Positions 7,076 through 48,898 of a stretch of 48,898 nt of DNA are shown here, in pieces. Under the pieces are notes generated by a model. The model saw nothing but the letters and a program-made list of their open reading frames with translations, was not told where the DNA came from and ran no database searches. Numbering within the stretch: position 1 is the stretch's first letter; each line of letters starts with the position of its first letter. Source of the DNA: Pseudomonadota bacterium (lineage in GTDB: Bacteria > Pseudomonadota > Gammaproteobacteria > Burkholderiales > Sulfuricellaceae). Location: assembly GCA_021801705.1 (NCBI GenBank), contig JAJYXP010000073.1, forward strand, positions 1 through 48,898, given 5' to 3'. The translations under genes and the position numbers were made by a program.

Positions 7076-7320
7076 GCCTTGCGTCCGGTAAACAGGCTTT
7101 CGATTTCGCTGCTGCCCATCTGGTCGAAATCATCCGGCACGGAAAATTCTCCCGCCATGAATCCCAGGCGACTAGCCGTTCCCGATTCGGCGGGTTCCAG
7201 CGGGATAACCTTGACCATCGGCTTGCCAGCCTTGGCAATGATGAAGGCTTCGCCGTGAGCGGCTTGTTCGACCAGCTTGGAAAGCTGGGTTTTGGCATCG
7301 TGGATATTGACGGTGAGCAT
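7072..7320 (-). CDS. Type II antitoxin, Phd/YefM family, module 2
   Basis: An 82-residue protein beginning MLTVNIHDAKTQLSKLVEQA, then HGEAFIIAKAGKPMVKVIPL, the standard Phd/YefM N-terminal DNA-binding fold. The C-terminal part (FSVPDDFDQMGSSEIESLFTGRKA) is the 'VPDDFD' tail typical of antitoxins paired with LLLDTHLLLW-type PIN toxins. GAGG lies about 6 bases before the ATG. Its end overlaps the toxin start by four bases. Expected to bind the toxin and to repress the promoter at 7337-7377. Confidence 0.9.
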   Translation of the reverse strand: MLTVNIHDAKTQLSKLVEQAAHGEAFIIAKAGKPMVKVIPLEPAESGTASRLGFMAGEFSVPDDFDQMGSSEIESLFTGRKA

Positions 7321-7336
7321 GGCGGCCTCGTAGTGG

Positions 7337-7377
7337 ACTAATTGAAGTTAGTTTACATGAAGCAGGCGAAATGACAA
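7337..7377 (-). promoter_or_regulatory. Promoter and palindromic operator of toxin-antitoxin module 2
   Basis: Read on the minus strand: -35 TTGTCA (7377-7372), 17-base spacer, -10 TAAACT (7354-7349). The palindrome ACTAA-N6-TTAGT (7337-7352) overlaps the -10 and the start region. The arrangement is the same as in module 1 although the operator sequence differs, so the two modules are probably regulated separately. Confidence 0.6.
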
Positions 7378-7424
7378 CCCCCTCACCCCAGCCCCCTCCC
7401 TCGGGAAAGAGGGCGTGGATGCAT

Positions 7425-37267: not shown

Positions 37268-39992
<2,725 letters not shown>

Positions 39993-40000
<8 letters not shown>

Positions 40001-40853
40001 CCCGCGACTCCTTTTCCAGAACCTGGTATTTCTCGATATTCAGCCTTTCCAGGGGCCGGTAATCCCGCTCGTAGTCTGACTTCACCGGCTGGGGCATACG
40101 GATTTCCCTGAGCATATCCCGGCCAATGGCATCCCGCCGCAATGCCAGGAACGCCTCCACCACCGCTGTCCTGACGCGCTCCGGCACGCGCGGATGCGCG
40201 ACCACGGGATGGGGCGCCACGCCGGGTGTCTGATAAAGCACGGCAAGTTGTTCCCGCACTTCCGGCGCCTCGCCGTTGAAAGAGACATTAACGCCGCCGC
40301 CTGCCGCCACATTCCCTTGGGCCACATGCCGGAACACGTTGGAGTGGGTATTGAGATAGCGGGGCTCGAAGCGGATTTTCGCCTCTTCGGCAAGCAGCGC
40401 GCGCAGATAAAGAGAGGCGCCGAACGCATTGGGCGCGGGGAAAGCGATGGTTTTGCCGTCCAGGTCACGCAAGGATTTGTAAGGGCTGTCCCGGCGCACC
40501 AGCAGGATGCCGGCCAGCGGCTTGCTGTCGCGCAGCAGCGGCAGATAAGCCTGCGCCCGTTTGGCCATGACCGCGTGATAAGGATTCATGTAGGCAAAAT
40601 CGGGGGCGCCCTTCATGAAATCCGCCTCGAATTTTTGAATGGACGCGTTAATCTTGAGTTCCAGGGCAACCCCGGTTTCGCGCGAGACGCGATCGAGAAC
40701 CGGCCACCACTCCCGGTGCAACTGCGCAGGGCTGAACTGCGGCACCACCGAGAAAGTGTAGATGTTAGGCGTCTGCGCACCCGCGCTGCCCACGCAAAAC
40801 GTCATCTCCGCGAACAGGATGGGCGGAAGAAAAAACAGGCGGATGAATTCCAT
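39993..40853 (-). CDS. PhnD-like periplasmic substrate-binding protein
   Basis: 286 residues. Signal peptide of about 26 (LFFLPPILFAEMTFCVGSAGA, then QTPNIYTF). It belongs to the phosphate/phosphite/phosphonate binding-protein family: VVPQFSPAQLHREWWPVLDR, MKGAPDFAYMNPYHAVMA, GILLVRRDSPYKSLRDLDGK, TIAFPAPNAFGASLYLRALL and HSNVFRHVAQGNVAAGGG. There is no ABC permease or ATPase nearby. Its last bases overlap the start of the hybrid kinase by 8 (GTGGATGA), so it probably presents a ligand to that kinase rather than to a transporter. The phosphonate ligand is a family default, not proven. It starts 18 bases after the stand-alone receiver gene. Confidence 0.9.
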
Positions 40854-40871: not shown

Positions 40872-41321
40872 CTATCCGGAATTTTTCCGGGCATCATTTT
40901 TTCCGGCTATCTTGTCTATGGTAGACACCACTTTCCGGTAGACATCCCGCGGCATAAACGGCTTGACCACATAGCCGTCCACGCCCAGCCCCATGAAAGC
41001 CTCGATAATTTCCTGGTTGCTGTTTCTGCCGGATACCATGATGAACGGCACGCGCCTGAAATGGGGTCTTGCACGCATCCAGCGCAACAGGTCCTCCCCG
41101 CTTCCATCCGGCATGAGCCAGTCGCACACCACTGCGTCGTAGCGTTCCGCACCACCCAGCTTGACCATCGCCTCGCTGCCGCTGCTGGCCTCTTCCACAG
41201 CCATAAAAGGGTTGATGCGGCCAAGGCCCGAGACCAATAGGAAGCGGTGAACTGCCACGTCGTCTACCACCAGCAAACGCAGTTTGCGGGAAAAATCAAT
41301 TTCCATCGTTTCTGTTTCCAT
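40872..41321 (-). CDS. Stand-alone receiver-domain response regulator
   Basis: 149 residues, a single CheY-like receiver: LRLLVVDDVAVHRFLLVSGL (acidic pair), AVVCDWLMPDGSGEDLL (phospho-acceptor Asp67), MVSGR (Thr/Ser site) and YVVKPFMP (Lys). No output domain. CAGAAGAGGA precedes the ATG; a second ATG five codons in is possible. It lies 24 bases after cheB and 18 before the PhnD-like gene. It could be the CheY of this operon, or the receiver for the downstream hybrid kinase HPt; no other cheY is seen in the window. Confidence 0.88.
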   Translation of the reverse strand: METETMEIDFSRKLRLLVVDDVAVHRFLLVSGLGRINPFMAVEEASSGSEAMVKLGGAERYDAVVCDWLMPDGSGEDLLRWMRARPHFRRVPFIMVSGRNSNQEIIEAFMGLGVDGYVVKPFMPRDVYRKVVSTIDKIAGKNDARKNSG

Positions 41322-41345: not shown

Positions 41346-42413
41346 TTATCCCGACAATATTGCCCGTGGAATGTCCTGCAACCCCATCACCCGATCGACC
41401 CCTCCCAGCTTGATCGCCTCCTTGGGCATGCCGAACACCACGCAGGTTTCCTCATCCTGGGCGATGGTGGGCGCGCCGGCTTCGCGCATCTCCTTGAGTC
41501 CCTTGGCGCCATCGTCGCCCATGCCAGTCATAATGATGCCAGTGGCGTTCTTGCCGGCGAATTTCGCCACCGAGCGGAACAGCACGTCCACCGAAGGGCG
41601 GTGGCGGTTGACCAGCGGCCCGTCCACCACTTCGACGTGATAGTAGGCGCCGTTGCGCTTGAGCAGCATATGCTTGCCGCCCGGCGCGATCAGCGCCCGG
41701 CCGGGAATGACGCGGTCGTTGTGCTGCGCCTCTCTCACCTCGATCTGGCACAACTCGTTGAGGCGCGCGGCAAACGAGGCAGTGAACTTCTCCGGCATGT
41801 GCTGCACGATAACCATGCCGGGGCAGACCCGCGGCAGGGCGGTGAGAACCGCTTCCAGCGCCTGGGTGCCGCCGGTGGAAGTGCCGATGGCGACGATGCG
41901 CTCGGTGGTCTGCGCCATGGCGTGGCTGCCGGCCGCGGCGAGAATGGCGTCGGCGTTGAGCTTGGGTGCCGTTTTCAAGACCATGACCGGGGCAGCTTTC
42001 AAACGCTTGACATTGGCCTGGGCCGCCGCGCGTACGGCCGACACCAGTTCGTGGGACGACTCCTCGAGGAAACGCTTGAGCCCGATCTGTGGCTTGGTGA
42101 TGATCTCCACGGCGCCAGCCTCGAGCGCCTGCATGGTTGTCGCCGCGCCCTTTTCCGCCAGCGAGGAGCAGATCACCACCGGAGTGGGGTGTTCGCCCAT
42201 GATTTTCTTGAGGAAGGTGATGCCGTCCATGCGCGGCATTTCGATGTCGAGCACGATCACGTCCGGCCATTGCCTGTTCATGCTCTCGATGGCGAAAATC
42301 GGATCGGAGGCCGCGCCGATCACCTGAATATCCGGCTCCCGGTCGAGCATGGCCTGCACCACTTGTCGCACCACGGCGGAATCGTCCACCACCATTACCT
42401 TGATTTTTTTCAT
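41346..42413 (-). CDS. cheB: Chemotaxis protein-glutamate methylesterase CheB
   Basis: 355 residues. Receiver at 1-120: [38 protein letters not shown] (phospho Asp), EIITKPQ. Methylesterase at 165-350 with the Ser-His-Asp triad: [18 protein letters not shown] (Ser), [18 protein letters not shown] (His) and [18 protein letters not shown] (Asp). It removes methyl groups (and amide groups) from chemoreceptors when phosphorylated by CheA, giving adaptation. It follows cheD on the same strand after 93 bases that contain hairpins. Confidence 0.97.
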
Positions 42414-42476: not shown

Positions 42477-42515
42477 CTCCCGGAAGGGCGGGAGCCGGGC
42501 GCGATTTTATGCGCC
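42477..42515. repeat. Two short hairpins at the end of cheD
   Basis: CTCCCG-GAAGGG-CGGGAG (42477-42494) and GGCGC-GATTTTAT-GCGCC (42498-42515), the second overlapping the last codons of cheD. They lie between cheD and cheB. They could reduce read-through or stabilise the mRNA; there is no T-run for a full terminator. Confidence 0.4.
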
Positions 42516-43058
42516 AAAACGCGGCATGGTCGTGGTCGCCGCTCCTGCAGAATTGCAGTCCACCATATGCTTAAACTTGATTTTTTCATGCCTGACCCAA
42601 ACATGTCCGTCGCGCAAATCGAAGATGACGCGGCGATGGCCGCAACCGCCGGCGTCTTCACTCTGGATGCGAAAACCGTTCGCCAACAGCAGGCTCCTGG
42701 CAGCCTCGACATTGCGCACGCCCACCTCCGAAGCTTTGTTGCCGGTTAATTGGGGAAACATGTTGCCGCCGCCGAACAACTTGGCCTGGTATTCGCCGGG
42801 CGGGGTGCCGAATTTACCGATCTCGCACAGGAACAACTCGATCGACTCGTCGCCGTAGCGGCCATCCGGCGTGCCCCTTCCCTTTTTCCCCCTGCTCGGC
42901 AGCATGAAATGACACATGCCGCCAATATGCAAATCCGGGTGCCACAGCGTGATTGAAACGCACGAGCCGAGCACTGTGTGAAGACGGCCGGTTTCATCGC
43001 CGAAATGGAAATCCCCCGGCTGGAGATAAATTTCGACGGGCACGGCGAGCTTGCTCAT
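42507..43058 (-). CDS. cheD: Chemoreceptor glutamine deamidase CheD
   Basis: 183 residues. EIYLQPGDFHFGDETGRLHT, VLGSCVSITLWHPDLHIGGM (catalytic Cys), CHFMLPSRGKKGRG (catalytic His) and KLFGGGNMFPQL are family motifs. It deamidates receptor glutamines to glutamates and may assist CheC-type phosphatases. Start at 43058 overlaps the cheR stop codon by four bases (ATGA), so it is coupled to cheR. The frame extends further upstream inside cheR without meaning. The extra C-terminal tail (GAATTTMPRFGA) is longer than usual and may reflect read-in from the following repeat-like sequence. Confidence 0.95.
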   Translation of the reverse strand: MSKLAVPVEIYLQPGDFHFGDETGRLHTVLGSCVSITLWHPDLHIGGMCHFMLPSRGKKGRGTPDGRYGDESIELFLCEIGKFGTPPGEYQAKLFGGGNMFPQLTGNKASEVGVRNVEAARSLLLANGFRIQSEDAGGCGHRRVIFDLRDGHVWVRHEKIKFKHMVDCNSAGAATTTMPRFGA

Positions 43059-43861
43059 GGCTTGCGGTAGATCGCCGGGGAGACGGCCTGCAGGGTATCC
43101 ACCACGCCGTTCAGGCTCTCCGAATGGCCGACCATGAAATGGCCTCCGGACTTGAGCAGCGGCAGCATGCGCTGCACGACCTGGCGCTTGGTTGCCATAT
43201 CGAAGTAGATCATCACGTTGCGCAGAAAGATCACGTCGAACTCGCCCAGCGCCGGCAGCGGCTTGCTCAGGTTGGCGTGGATGAAATTCACCCGGCCGCG
43301 CAGTTTGCGTTCCACCAGCAGGGTGCCTTCCTGGGCACCGACCCCTTTCAGGCAGTAGCGAGTAAGGTGCTCCTTGGAAATGCCGCTCGTCCGTTCCAGG
43401 GAATAATGCCCGGCGCGAGCCTTCTCCAGCACCCTCGTGCTGATGTCTGTGGCCATTACCTCCCACGGACCTTCGCCAAGATGGTCGGCAAGCACCATGG
43501 CGATGCTGTAGGGTTCCTCGCCGCTGGAGCAGGCCGCGCTCCACACCCTGAAACTGCGGCCTGGCTTGTGGCCGGCAAGGATTTTGGTGCGCAGAAAATC
43601 GAAATGCTTGGGCTCGCGGAAGAAATAGGTTTCGTTGGTGGTGAGCAGGTCCACTGCCACCTGCAGCTCGTCCGTATTGTGGCCGCCGGTGAGCAGCTTG
43701 AAGTATTCCGCATAACTGCCGAGACGATACTGTTTCAGACGCTTCTCCAACCGCCCGCTCACCAGCGCTTTTTTCGCCGGTGACAGGTGGATGCCGGCCA
43801 ACTGATGGATCAGCCCCTGAAACTGGCTGAATTCCTGATCGCTAATGATGATGGTAGACAT
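43055..43861 (-). CDS. cheR: Chemotaxis protein methyltransferase CheR
   Basis: 268 residues. The N-terminal helical domain (FQGLIHQLAGIHLSPAKKAL, SGRLEKRLKQYRLGSYAEYF) is followed by the SAM-dependent methyltransferase: LLTTNETYFFREPKHFDFL, RVWSAACSSGEEPYSIAMVL (SAM loop) and FDVIFLRNVMIYFD. It transfers methyl groups to receptor glutamates. CheR often docks on a C-terminal pentapeptide of receptors; the receptor at 44706 ends EFVKF, which fits. GGGGAAGCG lies just before the ATG. The gap to cheW is 284 bases and filled with repeats and a gene remnant. Confidence 0.97.
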   Translation of the reverse strand: MSTIIISDQEFSQFQGLIHQLAGIHLSPAKKALVSGRLEKRLKQYRLGSYAEYFKLLTGGHNTDELQVAVDLLTTNETYFFREPKHFDFLRTKILAGHKPGRSFRVWSAACSSGEEPYSIAMVLADHLGEGPWEVMATDISTRVLEKARAGHYSLERTSGISKEHLTRYCLKGVGAQEGTLLVERKLRGRVNFIHANLSKPLPALGEFDVIFLRNVMIYFDMATKRQVVQRMLPLLKSGGHFMVGHSESLNGVVDTLQAVSPAIYRKP

Positions 43862-44145: not shown

Positions 44146-44694
44146 TTATGCCGGCAAGGCCGTCATTTCCGGCTCGGCGCCGCCCACATGGCCCAGCAGC
44201 GCCATTTCGTCAATCGACAGCACGTGATTGACGTCGAGGATGACCACGAACTTGCCGGCAATCTTGCCCATGCCGCTGATGAAATCGGCGCGGATCCTGG
44301 CGCCGAACGAGGGCGCCTGTTCGATCTCGGTCTGGGGAATTTCCAGCACCTCGTTGACGGTATCCACCACCACGCCGACATCCTGTTTTTCGCCTTCGGA
44401 CTCGATCTCGATGATCACGATGCAGGTGCGCCGGGTGACCTCGGTGGATTTCCGTCCGAAACGCACGGCCAGATCCACCACCGGCACCACGCTGCCGCGC
44501 AGGTTGATCACGCCGCGGATGAATTCCGGCATCATCGGCACCGTGGTCAGGCTGCCGTATTCGATGATCTCCTTGATATTGAGGATGGGAATGGCGAACA
44601 TTTCCCCGCCCAGCAGGAAGGTCAGGTACTGGCTCGGCCCTTCCTCGCTGAGCGCCGCCCCTGTTTGCTGCTCAGACCGCACGATTGCACCCAT
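44146..44694 (-). CDS. cheW: Chemotaxis coupling protein CheW
   Basis: 182 residues, a single CheW domain: QYLTFLLGGEMFAIPILNIK, EIIEYGSLTTVPMMPEFIRG, VINLRGSVVPVVDLAVRFGR (the conserved NLRG), VGVVVDTVNEVLEIPQTEIE and ISGMGKIAGKFVVILDVNHV. It links CheA to the receptor at the membrane in the signalling array. The N-terminal tail of about 20 residues and the short C-terminal tail (ALLGHVGGAEPEMTALPA) are unremarkable. The gene starts 11 bases after mcp on the same strand. Confidence 0.97.
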   Translation of the reverse strand: MGAIVRSEQQTGAALSEEGPSQYLTFLLGGEMFAIPILNIKEIIEYGSLTTVPMMPEFIRGVINLRGSVVPVVDLAVRFGRKSTEVTRRTCIVIIEIESEGEKQDVGVVVDTVNEVLEIPQTEIEQAPSFGARIRADFISGMGKIAGKFVVILDVNHVLSIDEMALLGHVGGAEPEMTALPA

Positions 44695-44705
44695 AATTTG
44701 CGCTC

Positions 44706-46346
44706 CTAAAACTTGACGAATTCAAGCTCGCTCGGCGCCGCTTCGGCCGCTGGTTGCGACAGCGCGCCGGACCGGGAAACCGAAGATTCGCGCTTGCCGG
44801 CCGCTTTTCTCACAGCCTGCCGCCCGGTGGTAGCCGAGACGGCGCCGCCATCGAGCCTGAAGAACGCCATCAACTGCTGCAACTGCTCGGCCTGGCCGCT
44901 CATTTCCTCGGCGGTCGCCGCCAGCTCCTCCGAGGCGGAGGCGTTCTGCTGCGTGGTCTGGTTGAGCTGGTTCATGGCGGTATTGATCTGGCCCACGCCG
45001 GAAGACTGCTCTTCCGAAGCGGCGGTGATTTCCTGCACCAGGTCGGAGGTCTTGTTGATCGAGGGCACCATTTCGTCCAGCAGCTTGCCCGCCTTTTCCG
45101 CCAGTTGCACGCTGCTCGACGCCACTTCGCCGATCTCCTGCGCCGCCACCTGGCTGCGTTCGGCCAGCTTGCGCACTTCCGCCGCCACCACCGCGAAGCC
45201 TTTGCCGTGCTCGCCGGCACGGGCAGCTTCGATCGCGGCATTCAGCGCCAGCAGGTTGGTCTGGTAGGCGATGTCGTCGATGATGCCGATCTTGTTGGCG
45301 ATCTGCTTCATCGCGGTGACCGTGGATTTCACCGCTTCGCCGCCCTCGGTGGCTTCCTTCGCTGCTTTGGAAGCCATGCCGTCGGTCACTTTGGCGTTCT
45401 CGGTGTTCTGGCTGATCGAGGCGCTCATCTGCTCGACCGAGGCGCTGGTTTCCTCCACGCTCGCCGCCTGTTCGCTGGATCCCTGGCTCAAACTCTGGGC
45501 GGTGGCGCTGACTTCCTCGGAGGCGCTGGAGAGACTGTCCGCCGCACTTCTCACCTCGGTGATGATCTGCGTCAGCTTCGCCACCATGTTCTTCATCGCC
45601 GAAAGAAGCTGCCCGGTCTCGTCATGGGAATTCACATCGATCTTGGCGTTGAGGTCGCCCTCGGCCAACTGGTTGGCCACGCCGACAGCCTCGTTCAGGG
45701 GGCGGGTGATGCTGCGCGTGACCCAAAAGGCGACGGCCAGGGCGAGAAGCATGGCGGCAATCGCCAGTGCGACCATCAGGTTGCGCGCTGTCTGGTAATC
45801 CTCACTGGATTTCTTGCCCGTCTCATCCATGAGCTGACCCTGGTACTCGATCAGCTTGTTCAAGGCGTCGAAGTAGGCCAGTTGCACCGGACGAATCTCG
45901 CCCAGCAGCAGGTCGCGCGCCTGGTCCGGCTTCGCTTCGGCGATAAGCTTGAGGAATTGATCCGTCGCGGGAATGTACTTGCTGCGCGCATCGGTCACAC
46001 CCTTCAGCACCTCCTTGCCTTTTTCGCTGGTGATGCTCTTGTCCAGCTTGTCCAGGTTCTCCTTGATGACGCTTCTGGATTCGTTGATGCGGTCCAACTC
46101 TTTTTTGACATCTTCAGTCTTGTCCATGATTAACACATTGCGCACGGAGCGGGCGATGCGGTTGAGGTGCTTCAGCACATCGTTCGCCATGACAGTCTTG
46201 GGATAACGGTCATGGACCAGCTTCTCCATGTTTTGATTCATACCCCCAAGGTGGTTAATGCCGATGAAGGCGATAACGCCCATGAGGATCACCACCAGGC
46301 CGAAACCCAGTCCCAAGCGCATGCCGATTTTCATGTTTTTAAACAT
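44706..46346 (-). CDS. Methyl-accepting chemotaxis protein
   Basis: 546 residues. Membrane helices at about 10-31 and 190-210 frame a four-helix-bundle sensor (MCP_1-type: [20 protein letters not shown]). HAMP at about 211-263 ([20 protein letters not shown]). The signalling domain has the conserved hairpin tip [20 protein letters not shown] ... [16 protein letters not shown]. The C terminus ends ELEFVKF, whose last five residues fit the CheR-docking pattern x-aromatic-x-x-aromatic. The ligand is unknown. GGGGTACCCC just before the ATG supplies part of the ribosome-binding site. It is the second gene of the operon, 26 bases after cheA. Confidence 0.95.
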
Positions 46347-46372: not shown

Positions 46373-48607
46373 TTACTTGACTGCTACAGCCCGATTTTCC
46401 TGTCTTACCGATTGCGTCTCAAGATTCACCGCGCGCTGGATCAGCGCCGGCACATCCAGGATCAGCGCCACTTCGCCGCTGCCGAGTATGGTCGAGCCGC
46501 TGACCCCCTTGAGATTGCCGAAAAGCTTGCCGAGCGGCTTGATCACGGTCTGGAATTCGCCCATCAGCTCGTCCACCACCAGCCCGGCTTTCTGCCCGGC
46601 ATACTGCACCACCACGATGTTCTCGCGCCGCCCGGCCTTGCCCTGCTCGCGGAAGTAGTCGCGCAGGCGGATGAACGGCAGCACCGTGCCGCGCAGGTTG
46701 ATGTAATTGCGTTCGCGGGTTTCCTGGCGCTCCGCTTCGTTCAGCTCGATGCATTCCATCACCATGTCGAGCGGCACGACATAGGAAGCGCCACCCACCC
46801 CCATGAGGAAACCGTCGATGATCGCCAGGGTCAGCGGCAGGCGGATTTTCATGGTAGTGCCGGCGCCCGGTTCGCTGTCGATCTCTATCATGCCGCGCAG
46901 CGCCTCGATGTTGCGCCGCACCACGTCCATGCCGACACCGCGCCCGGAAAGGTTGGTGACGGCTTCGGCGGTGGAAAAGCCGGCCTCGAAAATCAGGCTG
47001 TATATTTCCTTGTCGCTCAAGCTTTGGTTCGGCCCCACCAGCCCGCGCTCCAGCGCCTTGGCGAGTATCTTCTCGCGGTTCAGGCCGCCGCCGTCGTCGC
47101 CGACTTCGATCACGATGCTGCCCGATTCGTGGTAGGCATTGAGCCGCACCGTCCCCTTGGCCGGTTTGCCGCGCGCCTTCCGCACATCGGCCGGCTCTAT
47201 GCCGTGATCCATGCTGTTGCGCACCAGGTGCATCAGCGGGTCGCCGATTTTTTCGATCACGGTCTTGTCCAGCTCGGTTTCCGCTCCGGTAATCACCAGT
47301 CCGATCTCCTTGCCTATTTCCTTGCTCATGTCGCGCACCACGCGGTGGAAGCGGTTGAAGGTCTCGCCGATCTGCACCATCCTGAGCTGCAAAGCGCCAT
47401 CGCGGATCTCCTCCACCAGCCGCGACATGGTCGAGGTCGCTTCGAGCAGCGCCATGTCGCGCGAACGCTGCGACAGCAGCGCGGCCGAGGCGCTGGCGAT
47501 GACCAGCTCCCCGACCAGGTTGATAAGATCGTCCAGCTTGTCGGCGTGGACGCGGATGAATTTGCTTTCCTGCGCCTTGTTATCCCGCGCCTGCTTCTGT
47601 TTCCCCAGCGCCGCGTCCACCAGTTCCTTCTGCACCATCCCTTCCTGAACCAGGATTTCACCGAGCGGCGGAACAGGAGGAGCATCCTCGCCGGGCGGCG
47701 CGCTTTCCGCGGCTACAGCGTGCAAGGTCTGGCAAATCAGCGTTTCATCCAGTTCCTTCTGCGTCACCGCGCCGCTGTTGATCAATATCTCGCCCAGACG
47801 CACCTTGTCCTCTGGCAACTCATTGATCAGATGGATGTATTCGTCAACCCGGCTGTACGGCGGCAGGATGCGCAGATTGCAGTCGTCGCGCACGAATTCG
47901 AACACGCCTTCGATCATGGATTTGTCGGCATCGCTCCTGAAATCTATCTCAAAGCCGAGATAGCAGCACTCCGGATCCATGCTTTCCACGGGTGGCATGG
48001 CATCGGGCATGGTGGTAATGCTGACGATCTCGCCGAGCGTGGCGAGATAGCGAATGAACGACAGGGGATCCATCCCGTTCTTCAGCACATCCCGGCCAAA
48101 GCGCAGAGAGATGTGCCAGGTATCACTGCCGACCAGTCCGCCACCACTGGGCTGCAGCGGCGTTTCGTGCTCCACCATCCCGCCGGGCTGCGCGGCAGGG
48201 GCGCCGTGCGGCGCAGCACCGAGGTAGACCTTCAATTTTTGCAGCAGCGCATCCCCCGTCGCGCGGGTGGCTTCGTCAGGCTCGACGCCCTGCGCCGCGA
48301 CCTGCTCCACCAGCGCGCCGATATGGTCGCCCGCGGATAGCAGCAGGGCAATCAAATCGCCGTTGACCGGCACCTCGCCGTTGCGCACCTTGTCGAGCAC
48401 GTTCTCCGCCACATGGGTAAAGGCGACGATCGTGTCCAGCCCGAACAGCCCGGCCGAACCCTTGATGGTGTGGGCGGCACGGAACACCGCGCCGATCGCC
48501 TCCTTGTCGTCCGGCTCGGATTCCAGGTTGAGCAGCGCCGCCTCCATCGCCTGGAGCAGCTCGCGGCTTTCGATCAGGAAGGTTTGCAGGGCTTGGTCCA
48601 TGTTCAT
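46373..48607 (-). CDS. cheA: Chemotaxis histidine kinase CheA with two inserted MshEN-like motifs
   Basis: 744 residues. HPt/P1 at 1-105 with His46 (RAAHTIKGSAG); P2-like region at about 160-250 (WHISLRFGRDVLKNGMDPLS); then two 24-residue segments, 270-293 (RLGEILINSGAVTQKELDET...) and 314-337 (PLGEILVQEGMVQKELVDAA...), absent from classic CheA; dimerisation P3 at about 345-405; ATPase P4 (HLVRNSMDHGI, GDDGGGL, GRGVGMD); CheW-like P5 at 595-735. The start at 48607 has AAAGGA about 8 bases upstream; the frame extends to 48706 only through the repeat. It is the first gene of the che operon. The inserted segments match RLGxxL(V/I)xxGx(6)LxxxLxxQ, the MshEN c-di-GMP motif of PilB/GspE ATPases, so the kinase may respond to c-di-GMP; that is inference. 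Confidence 0.95.
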   Translation of the reverse strand: MNMDQALQTFLIESRELLQAMEAALLNLESEPDDKEAIGAVFRAAHTIKGSAGLFGLDTIVAFTHVAENVLDKVRNGEVPVNGDLIALLLSAGDHIGALVEQVAAQGVEPDEATRATGDALLQKLKVYLGAAPHGAPAAQPGGMVEHETPLQPSGGGLVGSDTWHISLRFGRDVLKNGMDPLSFIRYLATLGEIVSITTMPDAMPPVESMDPECCYLGFEIDFRSDADKSMIEGVFEFVRDDCNLRILPPYSRVDEYIHLINELPEDKVRLGEILINSGAVTQKELDETLICQTLHAVAAESAPPGEDAPPVPPLGEILVQEGMVQKELVDAALGKQKQARDNKAQESKFIRVHADKLDDLINLVGELVIASASAALLSQRSRDMALLEATSTMSRLVEEIRDGALQLRMVQIGETFNRFHRVVRDMSKEIGKEIGLVITGAETELDKTVIEKIGDPLMHLVRNSMDHGIEPADVRKARGKPAKGTVRLNAYHESGSIVIEVGDDGGGLNREKILAKALERGLVGPNQSLSDKEIYSLIFEAGFSTAEAVTNLSGRGVGMDVVRRNIEALRGMIEIDSEPGAGTTMKIRLPLTLAIIDGFLMGVGGASYVVPLDMVMECIELNEAERQETRERNYINLRGTVLPFIRLRDYFREQGKAGRRENIVVVQYAGQKAGLVVDELMGEFQTVIKPLGKLFGNLKGVSGSTILGSGEVALILDVPALIQRAVNLETQSVRQENRAVAVK

Positions 48608-48647
48608 GCTGTTTTCCTTTCCCAATTCAAAATCGGGTCCACAAATG

Positions 48648-48733
48648 TAGTAGTCAGTCAACTTAAAACAACTGTACGTTCTTTGTAGGTGCGAATTCAT
48701 TCGCACATTTGGCCGAATGAATTCGGCCCTACA
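48648..48733 (+). repeat. Dispersed two-hairpin repeat, copy 3
   Basis: TAGTAGTCAGTCAACTTAAA, then the GTGCGAAT...ATTCGCAC and GGCCGAAT...ATTCGGCC hairpins, ending CCCTACA. The longest of the three copies, with the complete TAGTAGTCAGTCA end that is also the terminal repeat of the element at 33521-33665. It lies about 40 bases upstream of the cheA ATG and may carry or displace the che promoter, which I could not find. Confidence 0.88.
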
Positions 48734-48770
48734 AGAAAATCACGCAAATTCAACATGATTGAGTAAGTAT

Positions 48771-48870
48771 CCCCCGGCAGAGCCGGGGGCTTTAGCTTGT
48801 GAGCCGCTCGAAGCGGCTATGAGGGGTCGCTAACGCGGCCCCAATTCTTTTGAGCCACCATGCAGGTGGC
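48771..48870. repeat. Array of four short hairpins at the window edge
   Basis: CCCCCGG-CAGAG-CCGGGGG (48771-48789), AGCCGCT-CGA-AGCGGCT (48802-48818), GGGGTCGC-TAAC-GCGGCCCC (48823-48842, one mismatch) and GCCACC-ATGCA-GGTGGC (48854-48870). Spacers carry TGTGAG and TTTTGAG. Read on the minus strand, the order and flanks (AGCC-GGCTCA, then the CCGGC...GCCGG stem) resemble the array at 6588-6661. The array may belong to an IS200/IS605- or REP-type element that continues past the window. Confidence 0.55.
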
Positions 48871-48898
48871 TAATCAGCGCCACAGATCCATCTGGTCC

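Follow-up and report, generated by a model that had tools for sequence, protein, structure and literature searches.

Can a chemotaxis kinase sense cyclic di-GMP (c-di-GMP) by itself? This question is raised by the cheA gene of contig C9 (JAJYXP010000073.1) in the genome of a Pseudomonadota bacterium assembled to 2.84 Mb in 79 contigs. The window, i.e. the whole stretch of DNA analysed, comprises bases 1-48898 of this contig (48,898 nucleotides). Between its P2-like and dimerisation domains the encoded kinase carries a tandem pair of motifs of the MshEN type. Concerning homology, predicted fold, conservation of the site and conserved position in the kinase, we present computed results. We consider it likely that CheA harbours a true MshEN_N-type domain in the hinge between P2 and P3, which binds c-di-GMP and tunes kinase output.

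Chemotaxis and c-di-GMP are two main controls of bacterial movement. In the literature surveyed (papers cited here are drawn on as excerpts), links between them run via adaptor proteins, via receptors or via a phosphodiesterase that is bound. With a receptor domain in CheA itself, the link would be as short as any, and the whole array could respond to c-di-GMP. The domain itself is already known, and CheA was named in 2016 in one phrase within a list of MshEN-carrying proteins (Wang et al. 2016; PMC5013675). An earlier note on this DNA knew of no characterised CheA with this layout. Our literature search agrees, as no experiment on an MshEN-bearing CheA was found in titles, beginnings of abstracts and some passages of the open-licence PMC literature; the association as such had been noted. 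What we add is the position of the domain, its spread, the conservation of its site and its losses.

Tandem MshEN motifs in a CheA kinase

The gene and its parts, all on the minus strand, are as follows.

46373..48607, minus strand: cheA, 744 residues, P1 - P2-like - MshEN - P3 - P4 - P5, ATG start at 48607
48293..48592, minus strand: P1 (Hpt), residues 6-105, with the HTIKG phospho-acceptor box (Pfam PF01627)
47858..48124, minus strand: P2-like domain, residues about 162-250 (secondary structure of the model)
47729..47800, minus strand: MshEN motif 1, residues 270-293 (motif pattern, NF053729, ATPase profile, relatives)
47669..47728, minus strand: variable 20-residue linker, residues 294-313 (length 0-28 in 98 unique relatives)
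47597..47668, minus strand: MshEN motif 2, residues 314-337, Pro at position 1 (evidence as for motif 1)
47462..47629, minus strand: predicted helix, residues 327-382, from the second half of motif 2 into P3 (full-length model)
47387..47563, minus strand: P3 dimerisation domain (H-kinase_dim), residues 349-407 (PF02895)
46829..47242, minus strand: P4 kinase domain (HATPase), residues 456-593 (PF02518)
46433..46813, minus strand: P5 CheW-like domain, residues 599-725 (PF01584)

Pfam finds P1, P3, P4 and P5 in the order of a CheA, together with the phospho-acceptor histidine box, of which H46, T47, K49 and G50 are invariant across 44 aligned CheAs. Between residues 105 and 349 of the window CheA it reports nothing. 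Residues about 162-250, which have neither a Pfam match nor a PDB sequence match at E <= 1, are predicted to form a beta-alpha-beta-beta-alpha-beta succession; this is the strand and helix order of a P2-like domain, and from the model the region is tentatively named P2.

Two 24-residue motifs lie exactly where the earlier note had placed them, motif 1 (RLGEILINSGAVTQKELDETLICQ) at residues 270-293 (window 47729-47800) and motif 2 (PLGEILVQEGMVQKELVDAALGKQ) at residues 314-337 (window 47597-47668). Both show, in tandem, the residues that characterise an MshEN motif, namely Leu or Ile at position 2, Gly3, Leu6, hydrophobic residues at 17 and 21, and Gln24. At position 1, for which the extended consensus has R, K or L, motif 1 carries Arg and motif 2 Pro. 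The latter deviation is real, as is the second one remarked upon before, Val at position 17 of motif 2 with the Leu one place earlier. The motif starts lie 44 residues apart, as had been stated, because the linker comprises 20 residues; the usual distance had been put at roughly 50, which is wrong, since the two 24-residue motifs of MshE are separated by a 5-residue spacer and start 29 apart (PMC5013675). Spacers of 6-7 residues are found in the presumed ATPases L174-L176 described below, and those of relatives range from 0 to 28. Linker length in 98 relatives being this free, it carries little weight for or against, and five residues do not look like a defining length of MshEN. With a relaxed motif pattern the real CheA gave 2 matches, while of 50,000 shuffles none gave two and 59 gave one.

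That the segment is homologous to MshEN is shown by a curated profile, by profile-profile comparison, by PDB sequence search and by structure alignment. The CheA segment significantly matches NCBIfam NF053729, the MshE-related c-di-GMP motif (43.4 bits, cutoff 38, E 2.2e-11), and the match spans both motifs (residues 246-350). For the whole CheA protein the score is 35.7 bits against the cutoff of 38, and a genome-wide search yields 44.2 bits with neighbouring pieces joined. A profile built solely from the MshENs of 17 pilus and secretion ATPases scores 32.7 bits on the window CheA, compared to 6.9 for the best of 2000 shuffles and 5.9 for the next open reading frame of the window; in the same search the two other CheAs of the genome gave no match at E <= 10. 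We further aligned the window segment with 36 CheA segments chosen from 70 non-redundant ones (alignment A3); all 37 members match NF053729 at E <= 0.001. Searched against the PDB, the A3 profile recovers PilF best (2.6e-15, strongest in GSPII-C, chain residues 299-360), followed by PilB (5zfr, 9.7e-7; 5tsg, 3.6e-6) and MshE (5htl, 1.4e-4). Among the 15 rows up to E = 1, the sole one outside the pilus and MshE-type ATPases stands at 0.63. Profile-profile comparison of the A3 segments with ATPase MshENs gave 98.5% (E 3e-15). The wider CheA profile A1 also recovers other proteins through its MshEN part alone. Three of them (L174-L176), taken from their sequence for secretion or pilus ATPases, read RLGE... 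and then PLGE..., as does the window CheA.

The segment is modelled as the four-helix bundle typical of MshEN, and VIA-align, which re-aligns only chains proposed by Foldseek, ranks MshENs first. The helix predicted for residues 327-382 begins in the latter half of motif 2 and extends as far as P3, the model confidence dropping to 58-69 over residues 341-380.

Vibrio cholerae MshE (5HTL) resembles the CheA segment in its two 24-residue motifs, in the key residues and in the matching four-helix model. It differs in being an ATPase whose domain is N-terminal, with a 5-residue spacer and Arg in both motifs, whereas the CheA domain forms part of a kinase, has its motifs joined by a linker of 20 residues and carries Pro in motif 2. 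Closer in sequence is GSPII-C of Thermus thermophilus PilF, the best PDB match, with RLGE... followed by PLGEIL... as in the window CheA; however, PilF is an ATPase, and a third motif is present, so that the pair forming the site is ambiguous (PMC11731258). NfrB, a c-di-GMP-activated glycosyltransferase and thus not a kinase, provides MshEN on a non-ATPase output and is weakly matched in profile by the same region of 19 of the 37 A3 members. The cell-cycle histidine kinase CckA binds c-di-GMP directly, as is proposed here for CheA, but it is not a chemotaxis kinase and its site is on the catalytic (CA) domain (PMC7288161). MapZ acting on CheR1, the PilZ chemoreceptor Cbp1 and the CheA-associated phosphodiesterase Pch also couple c-di-GMP and chemotaxis; as far as the literature excerpts tell, they act through other proteins, and none involves a receptor domain in CheA.

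Conservation of the site and spread of the domain

A relatives search and a scan of genome contigs yielded 105 loci matching the segment profile (L008-L112). Four loci truncated at contig ends (L012, L024, L030, L039) were dropped, leaving 101, of which 98 are unique. Since the scan contributed the best 80 of at least 548 relatives, the set leans towards CheAs with the domain. Among the 98, motif 1 retains Arg1 in 82, Gly3 in 95, Leu6 in 96, Gly10 in 96, Leu21 in 94 and Gln24 in 95. Motif 2 has Pro1 in 57, Arg1 in 5, Gly3 in 96, Leu6 in 88, Gly10 in 30, Val17 in 92 and Gln24 in 96. In 94 members both motifs keep positions 2, 3, 17, 21 and 24 (exceptions L011, L026, L027 and L029). Mean column entropy at the ligand positions, position 1 included, is 0.43 bits in motif 1 and 0.90 in motif 2; the P2-like domain has 1.19 bits and the linker 3.1. 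Judged from these alignments, the ligand-contact positions are under strong constraint.

The window CheA keeps the end Gln of both motifs (Gln293, Gln337). Its Pro at position 1 of motif 2 has a counterpart in PilF GSPII-C, a c-di-GMP binder whose motif II begins with Pro335, so that R, K or L is probably not strictly required there; GSPII-B, with Lys and Leu in place of Arg, binds at 6 nM (PMC11731258).

Named loci of the family are mostly from Betaproteobacteria, and the closest among the matches listed is Sulfuricella sp. T08 (85%). Some belong to Gammaproteobacteria (e.g. Pseudomonas brassicacearum) and a few are labelled Deltaproteobacteria or Nitrospira; Pseudomonas is covered by single loci and some genomes. 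Named isolates belong to the family too (Azospira sp. I13, Thauera sp. 28, Dechloromonas denitrificans, Duganella sacchari, P. brassicacearum), which makes the idea testable. In an even sample of the class, profile A1 matched 170 of 369 genomes, often through the P2-like part alone, and at least 33 of the 369 match both parts (hand count of the matches listed); one of these, L136, has lost motif 2. In the phylum sample it matched 196 of 398, at least 11 with close relatives and at least about 43 more with a distant form (hand count). With the ATPase profile, each of the 14 distant-form CheAs that were read with their kinase core reaches 15 bits or more, yet 11 lack Gln24 of motif 1 and only 3 have it. 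In this distant clade, from another class of the same phylum (L193-L208), the two motifs follow each other nearly without a linker; to judge by the residues, it is perhaps a branch in which the fold was kept and the ligand lost.

In a tree built from 107 kinase cores, of which 96 carry the domain, 2 are weak cases and 9 lack it, this label has to change 7 times; the support values are not fully settled, and L002, L003 and L206 form long branches. In the tree, three CheAs with the same P2-like domain and no MshEN segment (L190-L192) adjoin P. brassicacearum, which has it. MshEN was therefore most likely lost in their lineage.

A proposed c-di-GMP input to the kinase and alternative readings

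Binding of c-di-GMP by the CheA segment and an effect on the kinase are plausible, as far as sequence can tell. Ligand binding, the direction of its effect and the resulting output of the chemosensory system we infer as follows. The segment would fold into a four-helix MshEN bundle and most likely hold one c-di-GMP between the two motifs. Once bound, the ligand would impose order on the bundle or shift its orientation, and the last helix of the bundle may continue into the dimerisation helix of P3. This would alter access of P1 and P2 to the kinase domain, or the seating of the kinase in the array, and output through CheY and CheB would then depend on the c-di-GMP level as well as on the signal from receptors. 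Ligand binding to PilF GSPII-B causes a helical turn to unwind and subdomains to move (PMC11731258). By analogy, the beginning of P3 in CheA could be affected by a change of this kind. High c-di-GMP generally goes with less swimming, and our guess is for this reason that c-di-GMP damps or redirects output. More tentatively, and with slightly less than an even chance in our view, a deep CheA lineage of many Betaproteobacteria and parts of the Gammaproteobacteria would be a two-input device, receiving chemoreceptor signals via P5 and c-di-GMP via an MshEN bundle firmly joined to the dimerisation helix; a single kinase would then balance the surroundings against whether the cell itself is sessile or motile.

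Several observations weigh against a c-di-GMP-binding MshEN domain in CheA. The Pfam MshEN model PF05157, against which the earlier note had proposed a profile search, hits neither the window CheA nor any of the 37 A3 segments, and it is absent among the 12 families matched by any A3 member at E <= 0.1. The model has 90 positions and does not define the binding domain of 53 residues; with 0 of 37 members matched, we set it aside as a membership test. The miss may explain why the domain has been neglected in chemosensory surveys. Plain Foldseek against the PDB lists no MshEN, its top rows being unrelated helical bundles (E >= 1.6). Apart from the empty PF05157 search and this Foldseek list, none of the refuting results named in the earlier note arose. 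Also adverse are four points which favour a retained MshEN fold that does not bind c-di-GMP. This is the chief rival, unlikely in our estimate, and the domain would then be a spacer or docking surface at P2/P3, e.g. for CheY or a STAS protein. Degenerate MshENs are known, such as PilF GSPII-A, a non-binder in which, besides other changes, neither motif has its end Gln (PMC12002112), and XpsE, which does not bind either (PMC5013675). Gly10 of motif 2 is poorly kept, and the linker varies freely in length. Eleven of 14 sister-clade CheAs lack Gln24 of motif 1 with the rest kept, which suggests that non-binding folds of this kind can exist. Finally, in all 75 testable loci among relatives L033-L112 (80 loci, 5 without enough sequence) a small STAS gene ends 280 bases or less upstream of the estimated cheA start. 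A spacer would need no Gly3 or Gln24, yet each is kept in 95-96 of 98 relatives in both motifs, and they vary far less than the P2-like domain on average. XpsE, the non-binder, lost such residues, including Gly11 (position 3 of motif 1), Gly40 and Gln61 (PMC5013675).

The STAS-cheA order recalls Sinorhizobium meliloti, where a STAS gene (cheS) lies in the che cluster with CheA and CheD, and CheS binds CheA and affects CheY binding (PMC12654446). In contrast, one STAS query gave no match in the source genome, the assembly of which has gaps. At L033 the STAS protein (Pfam; gene at 7101-7422) is preceded by a receiver and a chemoreceptor.

Less probable still is that c-di-GMP is bound and acts on the location or assembly of the kinase (pole, array, pilus), not on catalysis. 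CheA normally works inside receptor arrays, and the domain adjoins P3; its position in the P2-P3 hinge, however, suits an effect on catalysis or phosphotransfer at least equally. We hold a different ligand, e.g. another cyclic dinucleotide, to be very improbable. The CheA site is unlike MshE at position 1 of motif 2, and MshE also binds cGAMP, far more weakly than c-di-GMP (330 versus 0.5 micromolar; PMC7288161). Position 1, however, varies among proven c-di-GMP binders too, and nothing points to another ligand. Chance resemblance in a helical low-complexity linker is next to negligible: Leu/Gly/Gln-rich helices are common and both Pfam and plain Foldseek miss the domain, but NF053729, the PDB search, profile-profile comparison and the structure alignment speak against it, and it is rejected on the ATPase-only profile, the shuffles and the two control CheAs, the profile and shuffle tests alone largely refuting it.

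Gene neighbourhood and further chemosensory systems

Downstream of cheA, further chemosensory genes follow on the same strand.

44706..46346, minus strand: chemoreceptor (4HB-HAMP-MCPsignal)
44146..44694, minus strand: cheW
43055..43861, minus strand: cheR
42507..43061, minus strand: cheD, start putative
41346..42413, minus strand: cheB
40872..41321, minus strand: single-domain receiver (CheY-like)

Assignment to class F7 was considered from gene order and PMC7184735 and is not claimed; word counts on the available text of that paper gave no occurrence of MshEN or c-di-GMP.

Two other CheA systems are encoded on contigs C47 and C37, and hence the MshEN-CheA belongs to a third chemosensory system of the genome. 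On C47, CheA stands beside FliF, two CheW-receiver (CheV-like) proteins and CheZ, and its system is taken for the flagellar one. C37 (L177) encodes a CheA-receiver hybrid with CheW, CheR-TPR, a chemoreceptor and a GGDEF protein (weak Cache matches). With its CheR-TPR and GGDEF protein, the hybrid system is reminiscent of the Wsp type of control over c-di-GMP synthesis, here within the same cell. The genome encodes 2 flagellins and 31 GGDEF domains.

Between the cheA start codon and the upstream end of the contig lie 291 bases. Within this remainder (window 48608-48898) short palindromes are visible by eye around 48690-48730 and 48770-48800, and a repeat between cheA and the upstream genes may have broken the assembly.

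Pfam DUF4388 weakly matches 19 of the 37 A3 segments (best E 0.00039), and there are further weak rows besides. Elsewhere in the genome, a 105-residue open frame (C26:33379-33549, L179) scores 37.5 bits with the c-di-GMP motif model and 40.8 with its neighbours; by its sequence it is perhaps a stand-alone or broken MshEN. Beside the che cluster, at window 37268-40853, the gene of a phosphonate-type periplasmic binding protein overlaps that of a PAS hybrid histidine kinase (receiver and Hpt), and the two may form one sensory pair.
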